Assembly (NCBI GenBank): GCA_028698585.1 | Contig: JAQVWG010000003.1 | Location: 71,131-124,315, forward strand | Direction of reading: 5' to 3' | From: Clostridia bacterium | GTDB lineage: Bacteria; Bacillota; Clostridia; Christensenellales; CAG-314 | DNA: 53,185 nucleotides | In this document: positions 1,604 to 45,340 of the stretch, one piece after another | How positions within the stretch are numbered: the stretch's first letter is position 1 | How the letters are laid out: each line of letters starts with the position of its first letter | Position numbers and translations under genes: made by a program | Notes under the pieces: model-generated | Databases searched by the model: none | What the model was told of the DNA's origin: nothing | The model's input: the letters and a program-made list of their open reading frames with translations, nothing else

Positions 1604-2443
1604 ATGACTTTTCTCCAATATCTAGTTGATAGATTTGCTCATTTACAATGGATGTATATAGCAGAGATTCTGCTATTGTTTATCACACTGTACTTTGTAT
1701 TCAGTTATTACAAGAGACAGAATGCACTGTGGTTTACCTACATTCAGGTGATATGCGTGCTTGTTGTATTCGCTATGTGCCTACTTAATTTTACTATCAG
1801 TAAGGCGCTCATTCTGTTACTGCTGATAATCCTCAGCGTTTTTCCTGCTATACTGTTCACTAATGACATAAGACGTAGTTTATTCCGCTTGACATGGCAC
1901 GATATATTCAAAGAGCAAAAAGGCGATGAACAACTGGATATAGAGCAACTCCAGTCAACGGCAGACGCCATAGTTAAGGCATGCCTGAATATGAGCAAGA
2001 ACGACGTGGGTGCGCTCATTGTTATATATGAGAACGTAATAGAGAGCATAGTAGAGAGTGGCACTTATGTCAATGCCAAGGTTAGCAGTGAACTTATTGA
2101 GACGGTTTTCTTTCCCAAGTCTCCCTTGCATGACGGCGCAGTGATTATTGTCGGCAACAAGATAGTGTCGGCAAGTTGTTATCTGCCACTTACGTCAAGA
2201 CAAGATTTTCCTAAGGAGTTTGGCACTCGCCACCGTGCAGCCATAGGCGTTACCGAACAGTATCCGCAGGCAACGGCAATAGTCGTGTCGGAGGAGTCGG
2301 GGGTTATATCTGCCTGTCATGACGGCAAAATGCTGAGATATCTATCCGGTGACAGTCTGTACGAAGTGTTGCGCCATGCACTTAAACTACGCAATGACAA
2401 GGATCAAGAGAAGGCTATATGGGGTGTCAATTATGAAGAATAA
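1604..2443 (+). CDS. cdaA: Membrane diadenylate cyclase CdaA
   Basis: Condenses two ATP to cyclic di-AMP, the second messenger that controls potassium and osmolyte uptake and cell-wall homeostasis. Three hydrophobic segments (about residues 14-36, 41-63 and 65-84) anchor it in the membrane. The cytoplasmic DAC (DisA_N) domain follows, with the catalytic DGA motif at 177-179 and the RHR motif at 209-211. Length is 279 residues, normal for CdaA. A GAGG ribosome site precedes the ATG. In Firmicutes cdaA is usually followed by cdaR (YbbR domains) and glmM; here only a 42-residue stub follows, overlapping the cdaA end by 11 nt. Confidence 0.95.
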   Translation: MTFLQYLVDRFAHLQWMYIAEILLLFITLYFVFSYYKRQNALWFTYIQVICVLVVFAMCLLNFTISKALILLLLIILSVFPAILFTNDIRRSLFRLTWHDIFKEQKGDEQLDIEQLQSTADAIVKACLNMSKNDVGALIVIYENVIESIVESGTYVNAKVSSELIETVFFPKSPLHDGAVIIVGNKIVSASCYLPLTSRQDFPKEFGTRHRAAIGVTEQYPQATAIVVSEESGVISACHDGKMLRYLSGDSLYEVLRHALKLRNDKDQEKAIWGVNYEE

Positions 2444-2561
2444 GATTAAGAAAGAAGGCGGTTTCTTCTATAGAGTATTCGTGCATAATGCAGAGTTGAA
2501 GTGGCTTGCGCTTGTGTGTGCAATCGCAGTATGGCTATTGCTGGGTTACCTAGTAGTCTAG
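2433..2561 (+). CDS. 42-residue CdaR-like membrane stub
   Basis: A short frame overlapping the last 11 nt of cdaA. It encodes a basic N-terminus (MKNKIKKEGG), then an amphipathic stretch and one hydrophobic segment, WLALVCAIAVWLLLGYLVV, ending directly in a stop. This resembles the N-terminal anchor of CdaR/YbbR proteins, which directly follow cdaA and regulate it, but all extracytoplasmic YbbR domains are absent. A terminator follows 25 nt later, so the frame has no room to continue. It may be a decayed cdaR or a minimal functional regulator. The start is inferred from translational coupling; the preceding GGGGTG is a modest ribosome site. Confidence 0.65.
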   Translation: MKNKIKKEGGFFYRVFVHNAELKWLALVCAIAVWLLLGYLVV

Positions 2562-2585: not shown

Positions 2586-2613
2586 ATGCTCTTATTACTA
2601 CAGAGCATTTTTT
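2586..2613 (+). terminator. Rho-independent terminator after cdaA
   Basis: Perfect 7-bp stem ATGCTCT / AGAGCAT with a 9-nt loop followed by six T. It closes the cdaA-stub unit just before the DUF1015 gene. Confidence 0.8.
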
Positions 2614-2643
2614 ATTACCATGCAACAGGAGGAATAATTAATC

Positions 2644-3873
2644 GTGACAGTTAAAGCACCTACAATTTTATTACCGAACAGTAATATCAATCTGAACAAG
2701 TGGGCAGTTGTTGCCTGCGACCAGTTTACCAGTCAGCCTGACTATTGGGACAGTGTGAATCAGTTGACCAAGGGCGCGTACAGCACACGCCATATTACCC
2801 TGCCTGAGATATATTTACCTCAAGCAGACGACAAGATGATTAACGGTATTAATGATACCATTAAGAGCTATTTGACGCAGGGTGTGTTGCGTGAAGTCGG
2901 TGAGTGTTTCATACTAACTGTTAGGAACACCCCTTACACAGCCCAACGTGTTGGCCTTGTACTCTCTGTCGACTTGGAGGATTATGATTACAGACAGGGC
3001 ACGTCTAGCCTGATTAGAGCCACTGAGGGCACAGTAATTGAACGCATACCACCGCGCGTACGTATCCGCAAAGACGCCCTAATCGAACTACCACACATAA
3101 TGGTGCTCTATGACGATCCTGACAATACGGTGCTTAACGACCTATATAATAATAGGGACAAGTTGCCCAAGTTATACGACTTCGACCTGATGATGAATGG
3201 TGGCCACATAGCAGGCTATCAAATCAGCAACACTGCGCCTGTTATCAACAAGTTAAACAAGTTAGTTAAGAATGGTATGCTGTTCGCCATGGGGGACGGC
3301 AATCACTCGCTCGCCACTGCTAAAGCAATATGGGAGCAGACTAAGACGACATTGAGTAAATCAGAGCAGGAGAATCACCCTGCCAGATTTGCCCTAGTTG
3401 AGGCTGTCAACCTGTTTGATGAGGGACTGGTGTTCGAGCCTATCCACCGTGTTGTGTTCAACTGCGGTAAGCAACTCATTGAGAGCCTGTCTATTATCGG
3501 TGGCGAAAGGAAATGTAAACTCCATTATCAAGGAGTTGATTACTGCCTTAATCTGCCACAGTCAGCAATACAGGCTGTCAAATCAGTGCAGGAGTGCATA
3601 GATAAGTACCTCGCACTTGATAAGAATGCCTCTGTTGACTATGTACACGGAGAAAGTGATGTCAAGAAGGTTGCAGACCAGCACCCACAATCCGTTGCAA
3701 TCGTTCTGCCCACACTCGCTAAAGAAGACTTGTTCGACTATGTAACAACTAATGGCGTACTGCCACGCAAGACATTCAGTATGGGCGAAGCATTCGAGAA
3801 GCGCTACTACTTGGAGGCAAAGTTCATTAAGACATTAACGCCTGAACAGAGGCAACAGTTCAAAACCAAGTAA
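2644..3873 (+). CDS. DUF1015 family protein
   Basis: A 409-residue protein matching the DUF1015 family by its opening (ILLPNSN...WAVVACDQFTSQ) and the family signature GDGNHSLATAK, beginning at residue 217. The family has no settled biochemical role; in clostridia it often sits near serine-biosynthesis genes, which are not seen here. No signal peptide or membrane segment is visible, so it is probably cytoplasmic. The start is GTG 2644, preceded by a full AGGAGG 11 nt upstream. The gene follows the cdaA terminator and is convergent with the aspartokinase, so it is probably a single-gene unit. Confidence 0.85.
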   Translation: MTVKAPTILLPNSNINLNKWAVVACDQFTSQPDYWDSVNQLTKGAYSTRHITLPEIYLPQADDKMINGINDTIKSYLTQGVLREVGECFILTVRNTPYTAQRVGLVLSVDLEDYDYRQGTSSLIRATEGTVIERIPPRVRIRKDALIELPHIMVLYDDPDNTVLNDLYNNRDKLPKLYDFDLMMNGGHIAGYQISNTAPVINKLNKLVKNGMLFAMGDGNHSLATAKAIWEQTKTTLSKSEQENHPARFALVEAVNLFDEGLVFEPIHRVVFNCGKQLIESLSIIGGERKCKLHYQGVDYCLNLPQSAIQAVKSVQECIDKYLALDKNASVDYVHGESDVKKVADQHPQSVAIVLPTLAKEDLFDYVTTNGVLPRKTFSMGEAFEKRYYLEAKFIKTLTPEQRQQFKTK

Positions 3874-5266: not shown

Positions 5267-5439
5267 ATATGCTTGACTACAACTGCACTTGCACACCAAA
5301 CAATTGATTCGTAGATATTATGTTACTATTATCACGCACTTCTTATTTACCATGCAATATGCTTGACTACAACTGCACTTGCACACCAAACAATTGATTC
5401 GTAGATATTATGTTACTATTATCACGCACTTCTTATTTA
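5267..5439. repeat. Direct duplication at the lysC 5' end, 90-bp period
   Basis: An 83-nt block is present twice without a mismatch, at 5267-5349 and 5357-5439, separated by 7 nt. The first copy directly abuts the lysC start region and contains the codons of the apparent N-terminal extension; the second is an upstream echo. Any lysC promoter here would be duplicated with it. Confidence 0.9.
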
Positions 5440-5691
5440 ACCATATATCTATGTAGTGTGGATAAATGCAAATGTTGTTAATACTAGTTGGCGCACATTG
5501 ATTAACTTCATAAACAGTTCTCAGTCACGAGTCGGTCTGTGTGCTCTGCGCGTTAATAAGCGCATAAGAGTCATACATTAACACAGTACAATGTAGGAGA
5601 ATCTGGATTATCTTTTTTTTGCATTGGTAACGTTAAACATAAGCAGATTCGTGTGTACATAGTATCTCGCGACAGAACCACTTGCCTGCAT
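5440..5691. other. Non-coding spacer between two repeats
   Basis: No gene is visible. A small hairpin TGCGC-N8-GCGCA and a run of eight T (near 5612) are the only marks. It is part of a gene-free stretch of about 1.1 kb between lysC and the glycerophosphodiesterase. Confidence 0.4.
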
Positions 5692-6156
5692 GCATTTACA
5701 CTGTACCTAGTGCCAAAACTATCTCGTATGCATTTACTATGCCTTTCTATACAACCAATCTGTGAGCAATTATACCGTACCTAACTGTTAAATCACCTTG
5801 CGCGCATTTACATGGTACCTAGTGCCAAAACTATCTCGTATGCATTTACTATGCCTTTCTATACAACCATTCTGTGAGCAATTATGCCGTACCTAACTGT
5901 TAAATCACCTTGCGCGCATTTACATGGTACCTAGTGCCAAAACTATCTCGTATGCATTTACTATGCCTTTCTATACAACCAATCTGTGAGCAATTATACC
6001 GTACCTAACTGTTAAATCACCTTGCGCGCATTTACATGGTACCTAGTGCCAAAACTATCTCGCATGCATTTACTATGCCTTTCTATACAACCATTCTGTG
6101 AGCAATTATTCCGTACTACCTGTTAAATCACCTTGCGTGCATTTACACTGTACCTT
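5692..6156. repeat. 112-bp tandem array, four units plus a partial one
   Basis: Units begin with GCATTTACA at 5692, 5804, 5916, 6028 and 6139, giving periods of 112, 112, 112 and 111 bp. The fifth is only about 18 nt long. Units 1 and 3 share ACCAATCTG and TATACC where units 2 and 4 have ACCATTCTG and TATGCC/TATTCC, so the array looks like a duplicated dimer. No open frame spans the array. Each unit can form a small GGTAC-CTA-GTGCC hairpin; in unit 1 the first G is changed. Confidence 0.95.
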
Positions 6157-21025: not shown

Positions 21026-21335
21026 CTACAAGGATAAATAAGGATAAGCCGTGCGCACAGTGTTTACACGCTGAAAGTCGTTGTACTCCTAATTATGTTT
21101 ATAATCCATTGCGACCCAATTAATGGCATAATAAGAATATAACTGTGTAACTATATGCAACGAGCTATTAGATATGTTCCACGTAACTATTGACTATTCA
21201 CCCAATGGTAACAACTAGTAAGCAGCAAAGATTATTAAGTATAACTGTGTGCCTAATGGTCTGATCAAGTAACCGTAGTATTCTGCAATGCTGTATTATC
21301 ACCCAACAGTCACACGCAAGTACAGGTTAACTTAA
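21026..21335. other. Non-coding spacer between the HIT gene and the repeat
   Basis: No gene, terminator or other recognisable element seen in this stretch. Confidence 0.4.
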
Positions 21336-21583
21336 TCAATGTACGCATGCTGTGTACATAATAAGAACCTACCATAAGCAGTCCAAGACATTGCGTTAAA
21401 CTCACGCAGACTGTATTATGACAGATAGAAGGGACGACAAGTTATTTTGTAAAACTTTATCAATGTACGCATGCTGTGTACATAATAAGAACCTACGCAT
21501 AAGCAGTCCAAGACATTGCGTTAAACTCACGCAGACTGTATTATGACAGATAGAAGGGACGACAAGTTATTTTGTAAAACTTT
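21336..21583. repeat. 124-bp tandem duplication upstream of rpsU
   Basis: Two copies, 21336-21459 and 21460-21583, nearly identical; the first lacks one G (CCTACCATAAG against CCTACGCATAAG). The pair ends in AAAACTTT about 33 nt before the likely rpsU -35 box. No open frame uses it. Confidence 0.93.
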
Positions 21584-37134: not shown

Positions 37135-38004
37135 ATGATAGAGGGCAAAGTCATTAAGGGAATAGGGGGAATATATACAGTAGACACAACTGATAGAACA
37201 GTCGAGTGTTTACCGTTAAAAAAACTTCGCAAGGATGGACTATACGTTGGCGATAACGTGCGCATACTCATGCAAGGTAATAAGGGATGCATTCAATCCG
37301 TACTGCCACGCAAGAATGTGCTTGTACGCCCACCGGTAGCCAATATTGATAAAGTTTTCATAATCATCTCATCTACTCCCGAACCAGACCTGCTATTGAT
37401 TGATAAGTTGATTATCAACTGTCTGCATAATAATATTGATTACTGCCTTATCGCCAACAAGACAGATTTATTAACCGAACAATTTGCACGGCGCATTAAG
37501 GACAATTATGGCGACGTAGAGCAAATAACGTTTACCAGTGCCATAACCAGGCAGGGCATATCTCAACTAGAACAGTTGATTGATGACAAAGTATGCTGTT
37601 TTGCTGGGCAGTCTGGTGTAGGCAAGACTTCGCTTCTTAATACCCTTGTTGATAATGCTAATGCACTTACCGGACAGCTGTCTGTTCGTATTGACAGGGG
37701 CAAGAACACCACCAGACATGCGCAGATATACAAGTGTGGTGCGGGTTATATTGTAGATACTGCTGGATTTTCGCTACTAGAGTTACCTATAGACAGTATT
37801 AATGCAGAACAGTTGATGACATACTACGCTGATTTCTGTAAGTATTCGTTCGGGTGCAAGTTTACAACCAAATGTACTCACATCAGTGAACCCAATTGTG
37901 CAGTCAAAGAGGCAGTCGCCAACGGGCTTATATGTGCTGAGAGATATGCGCGATATAAGACTATTGTATCTCAACTGATTGACGCACATAAACACCAGTA
38001 TTAA
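37135..38004 (+). CDS. rsgA: Ribosome maturation GTPase RsgA
   Basis: Late 30S assembly GTPase that checks the decoding centre. The GTPase motifs are circularly permuted as expected: NKTD (108-111) comes before the P-loop GQSGVGKTS (from 158, K164) and DTAGF. An N-terminal OB fold and a C-terminal zinc finger (C235/C241, C247, H249, C255) flank it. 289 residues, normal. The last 105 nt of the gene are repeated just downstream. Confidence 0.96.
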   Translation: MIEGKVIKGIGGIYTVDTTDRTVECLPLKKLRKDGLYVGDNVRILMQGNKGCIQSVLPRKNVLVRPPVANIDKVFIIISSTPEPDLLLIDKLIINCLHNNIDYCLIANKTDLLTEQFARRIKDNYGDVEQITFTSAITRQGISQLEQLIDDKVCCFAGQSGVGKTSLLNTLVDNANALTGQLSVRIDRGKNTTRHAQIYKCGAGYIVDTAGFSLLELPIDSINAEQLMTYYADFCKYSFGCKFTTKCTHISEPNCAVKEAVANGLICAERYARYKTIVSQLIDAHKHQY

Positions 38005-38129
38005 ACGTAAATTACACTATAGAGCAGTCAAAGAGGCAGTCGCCAACGGGCTTATATGTGCTGAGAGATATGAGCGATATAAGACTATCGTATCTCAACT
38101 GATTGACGCACATAAATGCAAGTATTAAA
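37900..38129 (+). repeat. Duplicated 3' end of rsgA, 124-bp offset
   Basis: 37900-38005 (the last 35 codons of rsgA and its stop) recurs at 38024-38129 with only a few substitutions, including GCGCG to GAGCG and CACCAG to TGCAAG. The offset is 124 bp. The downstream copy has no start codon and is not translated; it is a relic of a local tandem duplication. Confidence 0.95.
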
Positions 38130-39034: not shown

Positions 39035-39338
39035 AGGTGCCGTATATTGACACCATTTAATTTACATTTTTTTGGCTTATTAAGTACATTTCGCTTGTGC
39101 ACACACATTAAGCCAATATCAACTGATTAAGCATCATATATTCAAAAGCAATTTGAGGTGTCGTGTATCAACGCCTTTTAATTTACATTTTTTGACTTAT
39201 TCAGTACATTTCGCTTGTGCACACACATTAAGCCAATACCAACAGATTAAGCATCATATATTCAAAAGCAATTTGAGGTTCCGTGCATCAACGCCTTTTA
39301 ATTTACATTTTTTGACTTATTCAGTAACATTTCGCCTG
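39035..39338. repeat. 120-bp tandem array downstream of rpe
   Basis: Units start with AGGT at 39035, 39156 and 39276 (121 and 120 bp; the third is partial, about 63 nt). They share TTAATTTACATTTTTT and a CACACACATTAAGCC block. A 67-codon frame over this array is only a repeat artefact. The rest of 39339-39600 shows nothing recognisable. Confidence 0.93.
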
Positions 39339-40884: not shown

Positions 40885-41257
40885 CCGTTTTGCCATTTTT
40901 TGCCTTTATGATGGTAAAAGCATACGTTTGTACTGGCTTATGTTAGATTGTAGCAGTATGTAAATGGGATTTCTATAGATTCGCTGTCTGTTCAGAAAAT
41001 CAATCGCTGTTGGTGTTGAATATATGATATATAAATTAGGAGTGAGTATCAAGTCAAATACTGGTTAATGAGTGTGCATTTATAATATGTGTGTACTTTA
41101 ATTACGGACATATCCGTTATTAATCTATCGGCATGCTCTCGCAATTAACGATAACAAAAAACCCTCTCTGAATAGTTGTATTGATAATATGTGCGTACCT
41201 TAATTACGGACATATCCGTTGTTAATCTATCGGCATGCTCTCGCAATTAACGATAAC
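40885..41257. other. Non-coding region downstream of rpmB
   Basis: No gene is visible. From 41084 it is the direct repeat listed separately; 40885-41083 shows nothing recognisable. Confidence 0.4.
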
Positions 41258-41272
41258 AAAAAACCCTCTCTG
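41084..41272. repeat. 102-bp duplication that includes the rpmB terminator arm
   Basis: Copies at 41084-41170 and 41186-41272, offset 102 bp and nearly identical. Each carries an ACGGA-CATA-TCCGT hairpin and ends in A6-CCCTCTCTG, the distal arm of the rpmB terminator; only the copy next to rpmB has the matching AGGGTTT arm. Confidence 0.92.
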
Positions 41273-43917: not shown

Positions 43918-44021
43918 GTGATTATATTACTCAGTCAGCGCATATAGTAATCTCCTCATTCGGTCACTGTGCCAGAAGTTGCTAATATTAGACAATCAAT
44001 TACTTAATAGTACAGTACTGT

Positions 44022-44890
44022 CGTTATGCATTGACTGAGCGACTGCGTGTAAATGTTCCACTTAGTCCTAGCATTAACGACATATAGCGTAATAACAACT
44101 GTAATTATTCTTAGATGTACAAACGACCCGTTATCACTTGATCGTAAGCAATAGATATAAGTTTAGCGATTAAAAGTAGTGCCGTTATGCATTGACTGAG
44201 CGACTGCGTGTAAATGTTCACACTTAGTCCTAGCATTAACGACATATAGCGTAATAACAACAAGCAATTATTCTTAGATGTACAAACGACCCGTTATCAC
44301 TTGATCGTAAGCAATAGATATAAGTTTAGCGATTAAAAGTAGTGCCGTTATGCCTTAATTGAGCGACTGCGTGTAAATGTTCACACTTAGTCCTAGCATT
44401 AACGACATATAGCGTAATAACAACTGTAATTATTCTTAGATGTACAAACGACCCGTTATCACTTGACCGTAAGCAATAGATGTAAGTTTAGCGATTAACA
44501 GTAGTGCTGTTATGCCTTAATTGAGCGACTAAGGGCAAATATTCAAACTTAGTCCTAGCATTAACGACATATAGCGTAATAACAACATGCAATTATTCTT
44601 AGATGTACATACGACCCGTTATCACTTGATCGTAAGCAATAGATATAAGTTTAGCGATTAACAGTAGTGCCGTTATGCATTGACTGAGCGACTGCGTGTA
44701 AATGTTCACACTTAGTCCTAGCATTAACGACATATAGCGTAATAACAACTGTAATTATTCTTAGATGTACAAACGACCCGTTATCACTTGACCGTAAGCA
44801 ATAGATATAAGTTTAGCGATTAACAGTAGTGCCGTTATGCCTTAATTGAGCGACTAAGGGCAAATATTCAAACTTAATCCTAGCAATAAC
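44022..44890. repeat. 162-bp tandem array, five units plus a partial sixth
   Basis: Units start at CGTTATGC (or TGTTATGC) at 44022, 44183, 44346, 44508, 44671 and 44833; periods are 161-163 bp. The sixth is about 58 nt. Two sequence types alternate in part: one has GACTGCGTGT and the other GACTAAGGGC near unit position 20, and CAACTG alternates with CAACAAGC/CAACATGC. In both types this region can pair with CTTAGTC about 20 nt on, so each unit keeps a hairpin (GACT...AGTC). No open frame spans the array. Confidence 0.95.
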
Positions 44891-45340
44891 GGTTGAATTG
44901 CGTAATTAACGCATATTTATCAACTCAATAGATTACTTCCTTACTAGAATAGCGTTGTTCATTCTATGGAGTAACCACATAATAACATCCTCAAGCGTAC
45001 ACGTTGATGTCCACGCCAGTCATATTCCTAGGTGCTGTTTAATTGTATCATGTTGCAACACAATTCATATGTTGTCGTATTATGTAAGTTGCTTACATTT
45101 TTCACTAAACTTTCACAAATGTTGTTGTATATATCACACAACTAACACAATGAGCCTTTATAATTAACACATCGCAATAGCCTGGGAGAACAAGGTGCCC
45201 AAAATGAGTATATGAATGATAGGATACTCTTATTTTATATTGTGATTATCTCTTCTCGCACCAATTGCTGCTTACACAATTAGGTCAAGTAGTGGTAATT
45301 GAGTGTTGAATTAAAAAATGATTATTAAGGAGAAAAGAAA
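44891..45340. other. Leader region of the giant surface-protein gene
   Basis: No gene. A 70-codon TTG-initiated frame at 44955-45167 is cysteine-rich and not convincing. Direct promoter motifs are ambiguous. AAGGAG at about 45327-45332 is the ribosome site of the next gene. Confidence 0.4.

Follow-up and report, generated by a model that had tools for sequence, protein, structure and literature searches.

CdaR (YbbR) is the regulator, in Bacillota, of CdaA (DacA), the diadenylate cyclase that makes the signal c-di-AMP. In three reports on other bacteria, the contact between the two proteins lies between their membrane regions (PMC10243994, PMC8573169, PMC6368335). The mechanism by which CdaR controls CdaA has been called unclear (PMC8573169). 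CdaR has been reported as an activator and also as a repressor. In S. aureus, insertion in ybbR resulted in higher c-di-AMP (PMC11520302). Natural CdaA-CdaR fusions are found in streptococci, where prediction places the CdaR helix alongside the first helix of CdaA (PMC10243994). Our literature search, which covered few subscription journals, found no description of a short form of CdaR.

The DNA analyzed here (hereafter the window) is a stretch of 53,185 nucleotides from a Clostridia bacterium. As the first-pass annotation of the window had stated, cdaA is complete. Its 279-aa product matches Pfam DAC (PF02457) at E 9e-39, and the DGA and RHR motifs, both of which are invariant across the alignment, are intact. 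An ATG-started frame of 42 codons, encoding MKNKIKKEGGFFYRVFVHNAELKWLALVCAIAVWLLLGYLVV, shares 11 nt with the end of cdaA (Table 1). We hereafter refer to this short frame as micro-CdaR. The next gene, encoding a DUF1015 protein, starts only 82 bp past its stop codon, and there is therefore no room for YbbR domains continuing in another frame. In addition, no YbbR domain was found in the whole window genome (1.49 Mb, 95% complete). The view that the CdaR gene is reduced here to a basic start and one membrane helix, with neither a frameshifted continuation nor a separate YbbR gene, is thus borne out. The terminator that had been placed after the short frame is present as a hairpin at 2586-2608 (7-bp stem, 9-nt loop) followed by six T. 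It is, however, weaker than had been stated, with an energy z of -0.72, and was absent from the results of the terminator scan of the window. Since Pfam and NCBIfam gave no match for the 42-mer, custom profiles were used in the analysis below.

Table 1. Features of the cdaA locus (feature, position in the window, strand, basis or remark).
cdaA, diadenylate cyclase	1604..2443	+	Pfam DAC; three predicted TM helices (residues 15-38, 42-60, 67-84)
micro-CdaR, 42 aa, basic N-terminus, helix 7-18, TM helix 20-41	2433..2561	+	frame, selection, profile, AlphaFold model
GGGGTG, Shine-Dalgarno-like site of micro-CdaR	2421..2426	+	within Trp-Gly codons of the cdaA tail
K23, A26, A30 and W34 codons (K-xx-[AS]-xxx-[AGS]-xxx-W face)	2499..2534	+	small residues shared with full CdaR
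weak hairpin and T-run, possible terminator	2586..2614	+	z -0.72; missed by terminator scan
DUF1015 protein	2644..3873	+	downstream of micro-CdaR; adjacency frequent, not constant in relatives

The short frame was examined in the family to which the window belongs, in which 41 genomes were sampled and cdaA was found in 40. A frame of 37-45 aa follows cdaA in all 35 loci with readable downstream DNA; at one locus of the family (G030), the short frame lies 137 nt away from cdaA. The pooled dN/dS of the frame, calculated from nine disjoint closest pairs with the codons overlapping cdaA masked, was 0.17 (pS 0.64, pN 0.21; Fisher p 5e-35). Conservation drops sharply past the stop codon (51% identity versus 71% in the frame, and 31% gaps versus 5%). 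A Shine-Dalgarno-like 4-mer precedes 82 of 87 micro genes, compared with 13% of other ATGs. In most members of the window's family this site is written in the Trp-Gly codons (TGGGG...) of the cdaA tail, at about 2420-2426 in the window, so that the same bases encode the cyclase tail and serve to start the micro gene. The gene is present in a single copy in the window genome. Judged from these sequence comparisons, the short frame is a product of neither chance nor decay. Its coding potential and the purifying selection acting on it mark it as a real gene, which is probably translated in the cell. The first-pass annotation had argued for retained function, and the family-wide presence and strong purifying selection agree with this.

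The relationship to CdaR was analyzed with an HMM derived from the N-termini of 82 CdaRs. The window peptide scored 23.5 bits on this HMM, whereas 300 shuffles preserving the composition of each segment scored 2.3 +/- 3.1 bits (sd), none of them as high as the peptide. The N-terminal helices of CdaA, which served as the negative control, gave a median of 1.3 bits. Alignment of the micro and CdaR profiles by hhalign gave a probability of 97% (E 1e-10, score 48.9). On the 43 well-occupied columns the score was 45.6, while 60 column shuffles gave a mean of 12.5 and a maximum of 20.2. A profile of the micro-proteins alone (A2) was also searched against 291 genomes of the class, where it matched long frames. 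Outside the order, the matching frame also encoded a YbbR domain in 27 of the best 30 genomes, and all seven of the loci inspected there were directly after a cdaA frame. In this sample of 291 genomes, confident short-frame matches (E below 1e-10) were found only inside the order, and short uninterrupted frames outside it reached E 0.004 at best. The 42-aa protein is thus, by profile comparison, the N-terminus of CdaR, as the first-pass annotation had supposed. The N-terminal TM helix homologous to CdaR and encoded beside cdaA is present, while the extracytoplasmic YbbR domains are absent from both the gene and the genome. Since the protein is homologous to CdaR but is devoid of the defining YbbR domains, we name it a CdaR variant, micro-CdaR, rather than a member in the sense of Pfam.

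Three states of the gene after cdaA were observed in the order: full CdaR, micro-CdaR and none. YbbR is present in 100 of the 297 sampled genomes of the order and in none of those of the micro-CdaR families (f1, f9, f15, f19, f20, f29 and f32). Families f3, f6, f8, f10, f14, f17, f24 and f30 and part of f32 have no CdaR. In a CdaA tree of 105 rows the three states need only three changes, and the short form falls in a clade of 72 rows with a support of 100. The most parsimonious, though not proven, history on this one-gene tree, the deepest forks of which are not resolved, is a single truncation at the base of the clade followed by two complete losses. The truncation clade, a large clade of gut bacteria, spans at least seven families. 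The micro gene is dispensable, having later disappeared from two lineages. The short form had been labelled a remnant, a label that understates a form that is old, maintained and common to at least seven families. The gene downstream of micro-CdaR varies among the relatives, being DUF1015, aspartokinase, another gene, or none close by.

Most micro-CdaRs end a few residues past the helix. At one locus (L229 in genome G131), the gene after cdaA encodes a protein of 75 aa in which about 25 residues form a C-terminal tail past the helix, making it intermediate between the micro and full forms. At another (L216 in G302), a micro-CdaR of 128 aa after cdaA is extended on its cytoplasmic side by a long stretch of YPKTG repeats, which could possibly be a new docking tail.

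The membrane topology was deduced from the charge distribution. Micro-CdaR has a net charge of +4 on the N side of the helix and 0 on the C side, and the N side is the more basic in 96% of the micro-proteins. This bias suggests that micro-CdaR should insert N-in, like CdaR. An AlphaFold model of the 42-mer (pLDDT 75) contains two helices, a short one (7-18) and the TM helix (20-41). A26, A30 and W34 lie on one face of the latter, that is, two small residues four apart and, after another four positions, a residue that is aromatic or large. Small residues occupy both positions in 99% of the micro-proteins and 96% of the full CdaRs; the third position is W in 94% of the full CdaRs and V, W or F in the micro-proteins.

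An AlphaFold model of the window CdaA (pLDDT 79) shows three helices before the DAC fold. Pfam CdaA_N did not match this protein, which scored 40.8 bits on a custom HMM of the CdaA membrane region, with three N-terminal helices predicted, and 178.8 bits on TIGR00159, under its cut-off of 188.8. The membrane region has strongly diverged in the clades with micro-CdaR or no CdaR, where its median score is 29-51 bits versus 117 bits in the full-CdaR relatives, while the DAC domain drops less, from 194 to about 160 bits. This suggests that loss of the YbbR module was accompanied by a relaxation or a change of the constraint on the membrane region. The interface between CdaA and micro-CdaR may therefore differ from that of full CdaR.

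From the N-in charge bias, the shared helix face and the membrane contact of CdaR and CdaA in the literature, we infer that micro-CdaR has kept the intramembrane contact. We consider it likely that micro-CdaR is a translated descendant of cdaR, cut down to its membrane anchor, that serves CdaA as a one-helix subunit, the YbbR module having been lost once. Micro-CdaR would be inserted in the membrane with its basic end inside and would pack with its small-xxx-small-xxx-W face against the membrane helices of CdaA, as in the contact known for full CdaR. This contact would set the stability or oligomeric state of CdaA, and thereby cyclase output. A single event in the ancestor of the large clade would have removed the extracytoplasmic module. 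The first-pass annotation had offered a lost sensor and a sufficient one-helix regulator as alternatives; each is partly true, as the outer part was lost and the one-helix form was retained. The retention of the helix under selection suggests that CdaR works essentially through the helix and not through its large outer part. More tentatively, regulation by CdaR might reside at its core in the membrane helix and not in the YbbR domains; a peptide of 32-50 residues would then by itself be a dedicated subunit of a second-messenger cyclase, and the outer domains would be optional and were discarded by one large gut clade.

It is worth considering whether the peptide, though derived from CdaR, now has some other role in the membrane, unconnected with CdaA, and stands beside cdaA by history only. 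The divergence of the CdaA membrane region alongside the YbbR loss would fit this interpretation, as would the micro-proteins of family f1 with H-Y-F and C-A motifs, which have drifted from the CdaR consensus; the binding of micro-CdaR to CdaA is, moreover, something that we so far infer. The linkage to cdaA and the overlap were, however, kept across seven families while the downstream genes changed, and the CdaR helix face was kept in 99%, so that we regard an unrelated function as unlikely. It is far less probable that the short frame is a functionless remnant caught before its removal. Two sublineages do lack the micro gene altogether, but a dN/dS well below 1 contradicts decay, as do the conserved Shine-Dalgarno site and the retention of the gene across many genera and families.

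The overlap with cdaA and the position of DUF1015 as the next gene in the window could also indicate a translational leader or coupling element in which the peptide sequence is irrelevant. Such an element is very improbable, since selection acts on the amino acids and the downstream gene is not constant. Short hydrophobic sequences easily match one another, and a small ORF unrelated to CdaR, with a chance or convergent single helix, might have been picked up for this reason. The far lower scores of the shuffles that keep composition and segment, and those of the CdaA helices, speak strongly against this idea. It is defeated by the fact that a profile of micro-proteins alone recovered CdaR blind, and we give it hardly any credence. 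The genomes are mostly metagenome-assembled, and a frameshift, assembly error or binning error could hide a full CdaR. There is almost no chance of this, because no room is left before the next gene, none of the 37 family genomes searched has YbbR, and the same form recurs in dozens of independent assemblies. We rejected the remnant, leader-peptide, chance and artefact interpretations on the grounds of selection, the Shine-Dalgarno sites, the shuffle controls and the independent assemblies.

Several other features were observed in the course of this analysis. In the window genome, no ydaO-type c-di-AMP riboswitch was found and no GdpP-like DHH protein was evident, the only candidates being one frame of 757 aa and three frames near 330 aa. 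This genome may be unusual in how it degrades c-di-AMP and in the outputs of the signal. The nearly complete genomes (98-100%, 0.8-1.3 Mb) of family f28 of the order have no DAC domain of any type, and c-di-AMP synthesis appears to have been lost altogether there. The window also contains many recent tandem duplications (units of 90-325 bp, 91-98% matches), mainly intergenic, at 5267-5444, 5692-6155, 21329-21583, 37900-38129, 39035-39335, 41078-41272 and 44012-44891.

Micro-CdaR constitutes a conserved gene family that has been missed by Pfam and NCBIfam. It is a natural domain deletion, a helix-only form under selection beside relatives with full CdaR and relatives with none. Direct comparison of the three states could separate the role of the helix from the contribution of the outer domains. 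Micro-CdaR would also be a minimal, easily synthesized partner for structural work on full-length CdaA.

Compared with the CdaR (YbbR) of other Bacillota, micro-CdaR has the same position directly after or overlapping cdaA, the same basic N-terminus inside and the same single N-terminal TM helix. The helix motif F-xx-N-xxx-K-xx-[AS]-xxx-A-xxx-W is common to both, and the two are homologous by profile. Unlike CdaR, micro-CdaR has no YbbR extracytoplasmic domain and mostly stops just after the helix, and in the window the gene that follows it is not glmM. In the streptococcal fusions the CdaR helix is predicted to be beside the first CdaA helix, which is the contact that we propose for micro-CdaR; the fusions, however, are one chain with a full CdaR, whereas micro-CdaR is a separate peptide without YbbR. 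KdpF, CydX and AcrZ are one-helix subunits of bacterial membrane enzymes. Micro-CdaR would work like them, as a very small subunit that spans the membrane once next to a much larger membrane protein, a likeness that does not imply homology. It differs from them in that its partner would be a second-messenger cyclase and in that the peptide was truncated from a large regulator.
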